49,572 bases of DNA from Zetaproteobacteria bacterium CG_4_9_14_3_um_filter_54_145. Lineage in GTDB: Bacteria; Pseudomonadota; Zetaproteobacteria; Mariprofundales; Mariprofundaceae. The notes beneath the pieces were generated by a model. The model was not told the origin of the DNA and did no database searches. It was given only the letters and a program-made list of their open reading frames with translations. The stretch covers positions 1 through 49,572 of the forward strand of contig PFXI01000036.1 in NCBI GenBank assembly GCA_002791575.1, read 5' to 3'. The position numbers were made by a program, and so were the translations under genes. Position 1 is the first letter of the stretch; each line of letters opens with the position of its first letter. Positions 10,341-48,333 of the stretch are shown here, piece by piece.

Positions 10341-12446
10341 TCACCCGTCGACATCCTGGTAAAAGCAGAAATGGTTTTTACCGCTGTTTTTCACAGCATA
10401 CATCGCAATATCCGCCTTGCTGAGCAGCGCTTTGCATGTATCAGCATCACCCGGAAACAGGGAGATACCGATACTGCAACCGATCGTGCATTTGCTGTCG
10501 ATTTCAGGGTATGGGGCGGAAACGTTAGCAATGATCAACGCCGCTTTTTCTGCCGCGTTACCGGCCGCTTGCAGAGCGGGCAGGATTACGGCGAATTCAT
10601 CACCGCCCAGCCGCGCTACCGTATCAACTTCGCGCACACTGCCAAGTAAACGCGCGGCAACCGTCTGCAACAGCAGATCCCCCGCCTCGTGTCCCAGCGA
10701 ATCATTAATCTCCTTGAATCCATCCAGATCGATAAACATCAGCGCCAGCTGCGAGCCGTTACGATGGGCCAGCGTCAGCGACTGAGTCAGCCGATCATGG
10801 AACAGGGCCCGGTTAGGTAAACGGGTCAGGTGATCAAAATGGGCCATATCACGGATCTTCTCTTCGGCTTGTTTACGCTCCGAGATGTCGCGGGTGATAC
10901 CGACAAAGCGGCGGACACTGTCGATCATCACCTCACTTATTGCCAGATCCATCGGAAAGGTGGATCCATCCTTGCGCAGACCCGTTACCTCGCGTCCTGT
11001 GTCGATCACTTTTTTCTCGCCTGTTGTCATATAATGGTGGAGGTAACCATCATGCTCACTGTGATACGGCTCCGGCATCAGCATCTTCACATTCCTGCCA
11101 AGCACTTCATCATCGGCATAGCCAAAAAGCGCCCTTGCCGATGCATTGAATGATTCAATGCTGCCGTCTGCCGTGATAGTGATAATGCCATCGACAATGT
11201 TATCGATCACAGCAGCCAGTTTATCAGTCTGCAGCGCTACCTCCCGCTCCAGCTTCTCGGTGGCATACTGCTGCTTCTCGGCAAAATCGTTTATCGCTTC
11301 GTAGAGCGTACGCAGCTCATCCTCTGCCGATACCGCATCAACCCGCATCGTCAAATCGCCGGCCTGTAGCGCCCGCGTGGCCTCAGCCAGCCTGACAACT
11401 GGCCTGACGATTTTTCGCGACACAAACGAGAGAATCAGAAAAAACAGCAGCGTGCAAATGATAAAGCTGATCAACACCATGCCTTTGAACATCGATGCGT
11501 TAGCTGAAAAGACCACGTCTCTCGGCACATGCAGGATCAGCAGCCAGTAACGGTTATGTTGCCCCGGTGAGAAGTAGATGCGCTGAAACCCGTCAAGTTC
11601 TCCATGATTAGTATCAAATCTGATAAATTGATCCTGTCTGGATGCGATTGCAGCCATCTCCGGCTCAACATCTGAAAGCCGGTCATGTTTACCCAACTCC
11701 CATGCAAATGTTTTGGCAGCGTCACTGTGTTTGATGAAGTAGCCCCTGTCATTGGCAATATGACGTCGCGTGCCATTGGCTTCCGATTGAATCATACTGA
11801 ACAGCTGATCTGAAAAGATATTGATGACAATCAGACCGATGGTATGACCATCGCTATCAAAAGCAGGTGTTGCCATTCTGAGTACCGGTGTATGCGGCAG
11901 TTGAATCTTGCCTTGCTCACGGTACAGGGTGACGTCGGACAGATAGATCTGACCTTCTTTCAGCTTGAGCGTTTGCCTCACATAGTCTGTACCTGATTTG
12001 TCCTGCAGCGCATCCTCGGCCGTAATCCGGACAACTCCGCTTACACCTCGTTCACCCCTGACCAGCTCATTGCCCTCTACGTCAATATATCTGATTTGAA
12101 AGAATTGCGGGTGATTCAACAGGAATGCCCTAAAAATTACAGCCAGTCGCTGACGCCACAGCTGCAGCGTATCACCATTTTCCGGATCAATACCCTGATG
12201 CATGCGGGCTCGAATAATAGCTGTAATCGGTGGCACATCGCGCAACGCCATCAAATTATTTCTATCGGATTGCAACCCTTGTTCTATGCGTTCTTTCAGT
12301 GCAATCAGTTTGTCCTGTTCATTCTGCATGGCAATGCTTTTGGCCTGCCAATAACTGGTATAACTGCTGACAAGCAGCACCATAAACAGCAGACCCGACA
12401 GGGAGAGTGCTGTTTTACCGCGCAGGCCAAACCTTGCGCGACTCAT
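10341..12446 (-). CDS. Membrane sensor diguanylate cyclase (Cache-HAMP-PAS-GGDEF)
   Basis: A 701-residue protein expected to make cyclic di-GMP in response to an external signal. From the N terminus: membrane helix ~12-30, a ~280-residue periplasmic double-Cache-like domain (IRYIDVEGNELVRGERG and APAFDSDGHTIGLIVINI-type segments), a second helix ~318-342, HAMP (~343-395), PAS (IDNIVDGIITITADG to VGITRDISERKQAEE), and GGDEF. The catalytic RLGGDEFAVILP is intact, and the inhibitory site REVD sits exactly five residues before GGDEF, so product feedback is likely. No EAL domain is present. It stands alone: 95 nt after the sugar kinase (convergent) and 260 nt from the GST gene. Confidence 0.92.
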   Translation of the reverse strand: MSRARFGLRGKTALSLSGLLFMVLLVSSYTSYWQAKSIAMQNEQDKLIALKERIEQGLQSDRNNLMALRDVPPITAIIRARMHQGIDPENGDTLQLWRQRLAVIFRAFLLNHPQFFQIRYIDVEGNELVRGERGVSGVVRITAEDALQDKSGTDYVRQTLKLKEGQIYLSDVTLYREQGKIQLPHTPVLRMATPAFDSDGHTIGLIVINIFSDQLFSMIQSEANGTRRHIANDRGYFIKHSDAAKTFAWELGKHDRLSDVEPEMAAIASRQDQFIRFDTNHGELDGFQRIYFSPGQHNRYWLLILHVPRDVVFSANASMFKGMVLISFIICTLLFFLILSFVSRKIVRPVVRLAEATRALQAGDLTMRVDAVSAEDELRTLYEAINDFAEKQQYATEKLEREVALQTDKLAAVIDNIVDGIITITADGSIESFNASARALFGYADDEVLGRNVKMLMPEPYHSEHDGYLHHYMTTGEKKVIDTGREVTGLRKDGSTFPMDLAISEVMIDSVRRFVGITRDISERKQAEEKIRDMAHFDHLTRLPNRALFHDRLTQSLTLAHRNGSQLALMFIDLDGFKEINDSLGHEAGDLLLQTVAARLLGSVREVDTVARLGGDEFAVILPALQAAGNAAEKAALIIANVSAPYPEIDSKCTIGCSIGISLFPGDADTCKALLSKADIAMYAVKNSGKNHFCFYQDVDG

Positions 12447-31775: not shown

Positions 31776-34700
31776 ATGAATCCCGGCAGTATTGTACATA
31801 TCCTGCTGCGCTACAGCTGGTTGCTGGTAACACTTATCGGGCTGGCAACCAGCAGCGGCCTGTATCACCATCATCAAAGTCTCAATGAGCAGCTCGTCAA
31901 CAACGAAATCACCCTGCGCAGTCAGGTAAAACTGGATACCATCCGCGCCATGATGCAACAACATCTGGATGCATCGCAAACGATTGTGGCCTTTATGCAG
32001 GGCGAAATACTGGCCCACTCCTATATTGAAGAGGAGGAAGCCGCCGGTTTTTTACGGGCCCTGCTGGACATTCATAAAGGCGAGCTGCAAGCCATCGCCC
32101 TGTTTCCGCAACCGGATCTGGGAGAGCCGCTGGTCATGCATCAGCGTAACAGTGCACCGACCGCCCCGTTGCCGGATTTGGCACAACTGGAGCAGATCAC
32201 TGCCGACAGCTCCACCCTCTGGCAGGTAGAAAAAACTGCCGATTACACTGTTCTGCGCACCACCATCATCAGCAGCAAAGATAACCATCGCTCCTATGTC
32301 ATCTGCGACTGGGATCTGCAGGCGCTTTTCGATCACGCTATAAACGCAACACCGACAGCGGGACTGGGTGTACGCGTCGACATGAAGCGTGACCACCTGC
32401 AGCAGCATCTGTTTACCCATCAATCCCGTCTGGGTGAAGGGCAATCAACGACTGTTGACCGGCAATCATGGCAGGGTACATTCTCTCTGTCCGACACTCG
32501 GTTTATTGTCTACACACAGCCGGTACCTGAGCTACTACTCGGGCAACTCTCCAGCAACTTTGGCGCCTGGCTGCTGCTGCTTGGGCTCCTGTCGACTGCC
32601 CTGCTGGCCGTGCTGCTGTTCAAGATCTTCCGTGCCGATGAACAACTCCAGTCTGAGGTTGAAACACGCACAAGTGAGTTGTCCGGTGAGCGCGAGAAAC
32701 TGGCGGCCGTCATCGACCATGCACATGACGGCATCCTTGTCTGCGATACCAACGGAGCAATCCTGCGCGCCAACCCTGCCGCTGACGCCATGTTCGGTTA
32801 TGACAACCCGGATTGGTCCACTATAACCATTCACGATCTTGTACCGGAGCATCTGCGGGAAGAACACGGCGACCTCTTTACCCAGGAGATCACAGACACC
32901 GGCAGTAACATCTCCGATAGGGCAAGGCAGCTGCACGGGCAACGACGGGATGGCTCCCGGTTCCCTTGCCAGGCCACCGTGCACTCTTTCATCGCCAACG
33001 GCGAGCAGCGCATGTCTATCGTGCTGCGGGATATGACCGAGCAGAAATGCCGCGAATGGGTACAAAACACACTGTTAAAGCTGCGCGCTACCAGTCAGGC
33101 GAGTGCGCCGCTGCACACCCGGCTCAAACAGATGCTGGAAGATCTGTTAATGGATCCCTGGCAGGTAACCAGCCGTGCAGGCGCCATCTTTATTGCACGC
33201 GGCAACCAGCAATGGCTGACTGCCAGTTACGGCTGGAGTGTTATCGAGAAAAGGCGATTCATTACCCTGCCGCAGGACCACTGCATATGCGGCAATATTC
33301 CGGGGTCGTGCAACAACCCGGAGATGGGTCGCAATCAGTGTGAGGCTCAAACAGCAGATACATACCCGTCCAGACTATGTATGCATATCACCCACCACGA
33401 CAGGTCGCTTGGCCTGTTGCACCTGCAACTGCGGGATGCAGGCCCGATTCCAGAGGAGTTCCTGCGCTTCTGCGAACAGGCCAAAGAGATTATTAGCGAA
33501 CTGTTATTGCGTGAACATGTACGCCAGGCTCTGGAAGAGAGTGAAAACAAACACCGTCAACTGGTTGAAAATACCCCCATGGGTATCGTCATCTACACAA
33601 ACGGCAAGGTGCGCTACGTCAACCCGGCAGCAGTGACCATGCTGGGGGCAAGCAGCGCGGATGATCTCCTTGATCGGGCCGTACTGGACTTCATTGTTGA
33701 AGAGGAGAGGGATTCTGTATCTGCCCACTTTCAGACGCTGCAACAGGCCGGCTATGTACAGTCGGCGGAAGAGCGCTTTCAACGTCTGGATGGCGGCGTT
33801 TTCTGGGGAGAAATACGCGGGGTCCCCATTGAATACGAGAGCCGGCCGTCTGTTCAGTTGCTGATTCAGGATATCAGCGCGCGCAAGCAGGCTCAGGAGC
33901 AATTGAAACTGCTATCCTACTCGGATGAGTTGACAGGCCTGCCCAACAGACGACTCTATACAGATCGGGTCGAACAGGCCTGCAGCATGGCCCGCCGCAG
34001 CAAGCGACCGATATCGCTGTTCTTTCTTGACCTTGATCGCTTTAAAGTCATCAATGATACCCGCGGTCATGCCTGCGGTGATCAGGTACTCAAGGTTGTG
34101 GCCGAACGTCTGATGCAAACACTGCGCCTCTCCGATACGGCGGCCCGTATGGGTGGCGATGAGTTCGCTGTGCTGCTGCCCGAGACAGAACCGGACAAGG
34201 CCCTGCATGTGGCAGGCAAACTGATTGCCGCACTGAAGCAACCGATCTATCTCGAGGATCAGTCGACGGTCATCATCGGCGCCAGCATCGGCCTTGCCTC
34301 CTTTCCGACAGATGGTGAAGATGGCACCACCCTGCTCAAACATGCCGACAGCGCGATGTATTACGCCAAACAGAACCATATGGATATTCACTGCTTCTCC
34401 TCGGCGATGGAATCGGTTGCCATGCGCCGGATGTATCTGGAGGGTGAGCTTGCGGTTGCTGCAGAAAAGGGTCAGTTGAGCCTGCACTACCAGAGTCAGC
34501 ATGCCCTGCCCGCACACGGAACAGAGACCACGATCACCGGCGTGGAAAGCCTGATGCGCTGGCATCATCCGGAAATGGGCATGATCTCTCCGGCAGAATT
34601 TATTCCACTGGCTGAGGAGACGGGACTGATCAAACCCATCACCGTCTGGGCTATTGCAGAAGCCTCGCGACAGGCTCTGATCTGGGAGCAAGCCGGCATT

Positions 34701-47448: not shown

Positions 47449-48333
47449 TTATTTGCCCTGGACATTGTAATGGGTGGCTTTATCGCCACCCTGGTGTGAG
47501 GAAGAGTCGCAGGCTTTTTCTGCCATTCTGATGATCTGATCCACTGCCAGCGTCAGCTCATCACTGTTCAGATGCTCCGATTTGACAGTAGCCGCACCGA
47601 TACTGGCGATCGCACCATGCATGACCCCCTTGACCGTATTGCGTATACGCTCGGCCAGTATCATGGATGCCTTTGCATCCGTGTAGGGCAGCAGCACGGC
47701 AAAGCGGCTCTCTGCAAGCGGCTCGATCATATCCGAATCACGCACATTCAGCCTGATCTGGTGATGGATCACGCGTAGCAGTTGCGCCAGCTCTGACTGC
47801 TCTTTACTCAGGTCGACGTTGAGCAACAGTAGCGATGTGGCGGCGCCTTTTCTGGCTGCCAGATTGAGTGTTTCATGCATCAGCAGGTGGAGTTGCCGAT
47901 ACTCATCGGGTGCTGCTGCCCCTGGATCCGGCTCTGCCTGCGGCGGCCATTCCAGATGCTCGGGCAGATCCTCCCCTATATTGTACCAGGGTGCCTTGTA
48001 ACGGGTGAATATATGTCTGGCAGGACGCGTACCCGGATCGCCGTCAACAGTGCCCATACGGAAGATATAGTGTTGCTGGTCTTCACGCCTGGCATAAATC
48101 TGCGAGCCGCAGTTGCTACAGAAATAGCGTCGCTTGCCCGGAGAGGATTCGTAGTTTTTCAACAACGCCTCACCAGCCGTAAACGTCAGATCAGCCAGCT
48201 GCACAGTTGCTACCGACGAAAAGGCCGAGGCATGCGCCTTGCGGCAGGTAGGACAGTGACAATGGATGATCGGCCCCATCTCACCACGGATTTCATATCT
48301 GATCTGCCCGCACAGACAACTGCCTGTAATCAT
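47449..48333 (-). CDS. GFA-domain protein fused to a degenerate GGDEF domain
   Basis: A 294-residue protein using ATG 48333 (GGGAG 8 nt upstream; begins MITGSCLCGQIRYEI). Residues 1-~130 are a GFA/CENP-V-type zinc domain with all seven cysteines: C6, C8, C25, C27, C30, C72, C75. Residues ~145-285 follow a GGDEF fold (VRDSDMIEPLAESRFAVLLP, AERIRNTV), but the catalytic GGDEF reads AESRF (207-211). The inhibitory-site motif RDSD lies exactly five residues before it. That combination suggests a cyclic di-GMP receptor rather than a cyclase. GFA domains are known for glutathione-dependent formaldehyde activation, but many lack this activity. The fusion is unusual. Confidence 0.82.
   Translation of the reverse strand: MITGSCLCGQIRYEIRGEMGPIIHCHCPTCRKAHASAFSSVATVQLADLTFTAGEALLKNYESSPGKRRYFCSNCGSQIYARREDQQHYIFRMGTVDGDPGTRPARHIFTRYKAPWYNIGEDLPEHLEWPPQAEPDPGAAAPDEYRQLHLLMHETLNLAARKGAATSLLLLNVDLSKEQSELAQLLRVIHHQIRLNVRDSDMIEPLAESRFAVLLPYTDAKASMILAERIRNTVKGVMHGAIASIGAATVKSEHLNSDELTLAVDQIIRMAEKACDSSSHQGGDKATHYNVQGK

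Follow-up and report, generated by a model that had tools for sequence, protein, structure and literature searches.

A GFA zinc domain fused to a degenerate GGDEF domain with retained I-site residues in Mariprofundaceae: a candidate c-di-GMP receptor

Introduction

In iron-oxidising Mariprofundus, a GFA zinc domain is joined to a C-terminal GGDEF-like domain (C-domain) in which the active site (A-site) and the substrate segment are gone but the residues of the inhibitory site (I-site) are kept. The C-domain is best explained, with a probability of roughly 60% judged from sequence, as a catalytically dead GGDEF kept as a receptor for c-di-GMP, a biofilm signal under whose control the GFA zinc/thiol protein would probably be placed. 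The gene lies in the window, that is, the whole stretch of 49,572 nucleotides analysed (contig PFXI01000036.1 of Zetaproteobacteria bacterium CG_4_9_14_3_um_filter_54_145). A first-pass annotation of this DNA had proposed such a fusion and had named formaldehyde chemistry among the possible links; the fusion, the lost A-site and the kept I-site stand, whereas a glutathione/formaldehyde link is not supported. In the lineage bearing the fusion, c-di-GMP genes are enriched and have been proposed to control stalk formation (PMC8250860).

Architecture and predicted fold

The reading frame extends on the minus strand from an ATG at 48333 to a stop codon at 47451-47449, and its parts are as follows.

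47449..48333, minus strand: fusion gene joining GFA to a degenerate GGDEF, 294 aa and a stop codon, with 13 orthologs
48001..48333, minus strand: GFA (CENP-V/GFA) zinc domain, residues 1-111, from PF04828 and Foldseek
48310..48318, minus strand: Cys6/Cys8, structural four-cysteine zinc site together with Cys72/Cys75, invariant in 13/13
48244..48261, minus strand: Cys25/Cys27/Cys30, counterparts of a three-cysteine (trigonal) zinc site, C52/C54/C57 of Paracoccus Gfa
48109..48120, minus strand: Cys72/Cys75, structural zinc site, invariant in 13/13
47908..48000, minus strand: linker and end of the GFA region, residues 112-142, marked by a drop in pLDDT
47479..47907, minus strand: degenerate GGDEF domain, residues 143-285, from PF00990, PDB profile matches and Foldseek

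In profile searches the protein matches both GFA (PF04828) and GGDEF (PF00990), and PDB sequences match each half separately. The N-terminal half is a member of the GFA family (E=1.4e-27, 96.5 bits against a curated Pfam cut-off of 24.3) and resembles the GFA structures 8ajq (E=4.8e-10), 3fac and 1x6m in Foldseek. All seven cysteines listed in the first-pass annotation (6, 8, 25, 27, 30, 72 and 75) are present and invariant in 13/13 orthologs. Cys25, Cys27 and Cys30 were mapped by their CxCxxC spacing and by sequence alignment onto C52, C54 and C57, which form the trigonal zinc site of Paracoccus Gfa (PMC4682968).

The GGDEF-like character that had been claimed for the second half is borne out by Pfam in 13/13 orthologs, by PDB profile matches and by Foldseek. 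In the window protein itself, PF00990 is barely over the cut-off (E=4e-5, 23.9 bits against 23.8), and the alignment covers residues 184-273 and profile positions 57-156 of 161, the first 56 positions being unmatched. When the orthologs were scanned singly, GGDEF was matched in 13/13, with a best E of 4.2e-8, and all 13 match GFA too. A profile of the C-domain finds c-di-GMP-bound GGDEF structures (3ign, 4e-14; 5euh, 2e-9), and in Foldseek the C-terminal half matches DosC, WspR, GcbC with c-di-GMP (5euh) and PleD with c-di-GMP at a TM of 0.7-0.8 of the target, with up to 0.81 for 5euh. Profile and fold thus both place the domain in the PF00990 superfamily. With 13 sequences AlphaFold modelled the GFA region poorly (mean pLDDT 72.6), while the model used here, from a 32-sequence alignment, has a mean pLDDT of 92.8, falling to about 61 at linker residues 131-140, and a pTM of 0.64, which does not fix the placement of GFA relative to the C-domain.

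Loss of the active site and retention of the I-site

The elements of the C-domain that bear on catalysis and ligand binding are the following.

47851..47853, minus strand: Arg161, cross-domain I-site arginine at the position of WspR R198, R or K in 13/13
47743..47820, minus strand: segment replacing DxDxFKxxNDxxGHxxGD, residues 172-197, shortened and variable, with the guanine-site and metal-site residues absent
47731..47742, minus strand: RDSD, primary I-site RxxD, residues 198-201 (PleD R359/D362), with R, S and D invariant in 13/13
47701..47715, minus strand: AESRF, degenerate GGDEF signature, residues 207-211, with entropy above the domain mean
47647..47649, minus strand: Arg229, secondary I-site arginine (PleD R390, SgmT R794), invariant in 13/13

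As previously noted, the A-site of the window protein reads AESRF, and the GG(D/E)EF motif is missing in all 13 orthologs. The first four A-site positions vary faster than the rest of the domain (entropy 2.0-2.5 bits, the mean over the domain being 1.62). The distance from S167 to R198 is 23-37 residues in the orthologs, compared with 37-38 in 28 canonical GGDEF domains of the same genome. Since both GG(D/E)EF and the DxDxFKxxND..GHxxGD segment, which mark active diguanylate cyclases, are gone, the C-domain cannot be a standard cyclase.

The I-site has fared differently. RDSD precedes AESRF by exactly five residues, as had been stated, and can be read directly in the window protein; it is no coincidence, given that R198, S200 and D201 are invariant across the orthologs. 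R229 follows R198 by 31 residues in 11 orthologs, the spacing of R359 and R390 in PleD and of R763 and R794 in SgmT, and by 30 in the two that carry a one-residue deletion in the A-site. Position 161 was aligned to WspR, whose numbering was counted by hand. An RxxD five residues before the A-site, R229 in 13/13 and R or K at 161 in 13/13 are together what characterizes receptors with a degenerate A-site and an intact I-site.

This retention is seen against considerable divergence, as the orthologs average 41% identity in the C-domain and only 17 of its 143 columns are invariant (13 orthologs, codon-level analysis). Were columns interchangeable, three specified columns would all belong to these 17 with a probability of about 0.0014; since they are not interchangeable, the figure serves as a guide only. 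R198 is encoded by four kinds of codon and R229 by five (CGT, CGC, CGA, CGG and AGA occur among the arginines); this synonymous drift places the constraint on the amino acid and not on the DNA. For close ortholog pairs (three with estimable dS), dN/dS is 0.08-0.29 in the C-domain and 0.09-0.16 in GFA; the C-domain is under purifying selection.

The window genome, a 2.85 Mb draft, has 41 GGDEF matches, two more of which lie within the window (10371-10844, minus strand; 33918-34382, plus strand). In this genome, 28/28 of the canonical GGDEF domains inspected have RxxD, so its presence in one sequence is weak evidence alone, while an arginine at +31 is found in just 7/28 of them, compared with an aligned R in 13/13 fusions. 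Among degenerate GGDEFs elsewhere in the genome, RxxD is kept at loci L116, L118, L119 and L122 and lost at L117, L120 and L121, from which it follows that the fold does not need RxxD and that its presence in any one copy means little; invariance over diverged orthologs means more. Two of these degenerate domains lie in long open frames, L119 (G000:C110:51574-52026), which reads ISENRF and keeps RNGD, and L121 (G000:C17:23034-23531), which reads LADNRF and has lost RxxD.

Distribution and origin

A survey of genomes found the same fusion in 13 of those sampled, comprising 12 of 23 Mariprofundus and one (G026) of a second genus in the same family. The full-length fusion was found in none of about 320 sampled non-Zetaproteobacterial Pseudomonadota (fusion profile, E<=1e-28) and in none of 369 sampled genomes of another class (E<=1e-44). 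A contig scan with the window protein as query gave matches in Mariprofundus only, and sister genera hold stand-alone GFA relatives.

In the GFA tree, 11 fusions and the stand-alone GFA of the close relative G019 form one clade (0.916). The G019 protein (L077, 6665-7060) is 79% identical over residues 1-130 and is cut short by a double stop directly past residue 131, at position 132, and no downstream remnant of the C-domain is readable in any frame; since G019 is nested among fusions, the C-domain has probably been lost there. The two divergent fusions, G002 and G005, are placed among stand-alone GFAs with poor support, outside the main clade, so that the tree is compatible with one fusion event or with more.

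No gene neighbour is conserved across 21 loci, and just local synteny is seen among close strains. In some strains a CBS-domain sensor histidine kinase with a receiver stands next to the fusion (L069, 1852-4248; L074, 73-1797; L077, 4224-6616), and a pair of OmpR-type regulator and kinase lies upstream of it in L068 and L070; neither is found beside the gene in the window.

The proposed link to formaldehyde

The first-pass annotation had suggested that the GFA half might tie c-di-GMP to one-carbon/formaldehyde or redox chemistry; a link to glutathione and formaldehyde finds no support in the genomes. In NCBIfam, the formaldehyde-activating models stay far under their cut-offs on the fusion protein, where generic GGDEF models match; the S-(hydroxymethyl)glutathione synthase model TIGR02820 scores 39.9 bits against a cut-off of 234.55, which leaves the protein outside that equivalog. 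In 8 fusion-bearing genomes, no class III formaldehyde dehydrogenase scores over the cut-off and glutathione-synthetase (gshB) matches are weak only; the search for glutathione supply genes found GCS2 present and PF04262 absent. Given this result for class III formaldehyde dehydrogenase, and given that later work saw no catalysis of S-hydroxymethylglutathione formation by the founding GFA enzyme under standard conditions (PMC4682968), a role in formaldehyde metabolism is not favoured.

A probable c-di-GMP receptor and its alternatives

In known I-sites, RxxD and a second arginine of one chain and an arginine of the neighbour are bridged by a c-di-GMP dimer, the residues in PleD being R359/D362/R390/R313 (PMC7288161). 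By analogy, we infer that a c-di-GMP dimer binds R198, D201 and R229 of one chain and probably R/K161 of a second, and that this would cross-link or reorient the C-domains, as in PleD, WspR and SgmT. The pairing of C-domains may then alter the oligomeric state or accessibility of GFA, or the cellular location of the protein. The signal would run from c-di-GMP to GFA, since the residues for c-di-GMP synthesis are all gone from the C-domain.

Several observations count against this receptor. The ancestor of the C-domain probably already had RxxD and passed it on, as all 28 canonical domains possess the motif; R229 belongs to an amphipathic helix, where packing could explain its conservation; and residues outside the I-site, such as E228, I230, Y217 and T218, are invariant too. 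In addition, a conserved neighbour pointing to a c-di-GMP output was not found among the 21 loci. In one alternative, the C-domain would serve for dimerisation or as a scaffold without any ligand, and R198, D201 and R229 would be retained to support packing or contact with a protein. Dimerisation is a frequent role of dead GGDEF domains, and residues outside the I-site (S167, Y217, T218, E228, I230 and G246) are equally invariant in the 13 orthologs. Yet degenerate GGDEFs of the same genome without RxxD still score as GGDEF, the arginine at +31 is rare among its canonical domains, and the residues retained together are exactly the ligand contacts, which makes a ligand-free scaffold rather unlikely.

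The other explanations are weaker still. A dead GGDEF could hetero-dimerise with an active cyclase and inactivate or tune it, with GFA as a zinc or thiol/redox input and c-di-GMP synthesis as the output; partners would be plentiful in a genome with this many GGDEF matches, and GFA, which keeps both zinc sites, could sense zinc or thiols, but no conserved neighbouring cyclase was found at the 21 loci and such a role would not of itself call for an intact I-site, and we regard it as improbable. Binding of another nucleotide (GTP or ppGpp) by what is left of the active site has a precedent in CC3396, a GTP-binding degenerate GGDEF (PMC7288161), but is very improbable here, where the FKxxND/GHxxGD segment of the guanine pocket is absent and variable in length and variation in the A-site exceeds the domain mean. 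Just as improbable, and already disfavoured, is a decaying relic carried on a working GFA enzyme: the close relative G019 has indeed lost the whole C-domain, but the low dN/dS of this domain and the open frames in 13/13 fusions are not what decay would leave. The dead GGDEF kept as a c-di-GMP receptor remains the preferred reading.

GFA proteins are very common (174/299 sampled genomes) and their biochemical role is disputed. Fusion to a predicted c-di-GMP receptor connects a GFA protein with an established signal and offers a way to test what GFA proteins do; if the receptor is real, it would represent a new output class for c-di-GMP receptors.

Comparison with known systems

A second partner for a short C-terminal GGDEF-like domain is found in the same family, where the window genome and seven relatives carry DedA membrane proteins of this kind.

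Positions 6783-7793 of contig C96 (L127 = G000:C96:6783-7793, window genome): DedA-degenerate GGDEF fusion, with others at L128-L132 and L134

Like the GFA fusion, these proteins (seven sequences) have lost the A-site (DKQTF, AEGTM, ARDTF, SRNTY and others) and shortened the substrate segment but kept RxxD, with an arginine at +31 in the five sequences where it was counted by eye; the partner, on the other hand, is a membrane protein, and its domain is not clearly the sister of the GFA-linked one. Derivation of the latter from the DedA-linked domain is not supported, because several canonical GGDEFs of the genome outscore it on the profile of the GFA-linked C-domain. The copy in the window genome has an in-frame TAG inside its GGDEF-like domain. 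Within Mariprofundus, the GFA fusion and the full-length DedA fusion are nearly complementary: G006, G010, G012 and G014 have the DedA fusion without the GFA fusion, and both occur in the window genome (G000) only, where the DedA copy is the interrupted one. The sequences suggest that I-site-only GGDEF modules have been used repeatedly in Mariprofundaceae. A bolder proposal, which we put forward tentatively and consider possible but not probable, is that an I-site-only GGDEF without the substrate segment evolved in this family and was joined on two or more occasions to different outputs, GFA and DedA, so that c-di-GMP would directly control both in the sessile-motile switch of iron-oxidising bacteria.

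The GFA family members compared (Paracoccus Gfa, 1x6m; P. aeruginosa PA2722, 8ajq; CENP-V) share the fold and the seven zinc cysteines of the N-terminal half but, unlike the fusion, are stand-alone domains. On the C-terminal side, PelD of Pel secretion resembles the predicted receptor in that a non-cyclase GGDEF fold binds c-di-GMP at an I-site-like RxxD, but it is a membrane protein with GAF, and the Pfam PelD_GGDEF model matches 5/13 orthologs (best 0.0029) too weakly for membership. PopA of Caulobacter, likened here by description, has a dead A-site and an intact I-site that serves c-di-GMP-dependent localisation (PMC3509222); unlike the fusion, it is a receiver-domain protein. SgmT of Myxococcus xanthus shares the dead A-site, RxxD, the arginine at +31 and the C-terminal position of the domain; it binds c-di-GMP through a site comprising R763/D766/R794, and R763A abolishes binding (PMC3509222). 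Its partner, however, is a GAF-histidine kinase-receiver and not GFA, and its A-site (GGGVF) is less eroded. In the open-access literature, 'formaldehyde-activating' and GGDEF co-occur only as separate mentions and no paper was found with both 'GFA domain' and GGDEF, in agreement with the earlier impression that the architecture is undescribed, although it may already have been catalogued. The principle of a receptor with a degenerate A-site and an intact I-site is already known from PopA, SgmT and PelD, while the GFA partner and the extent to which the substrate segment has eroded look new.
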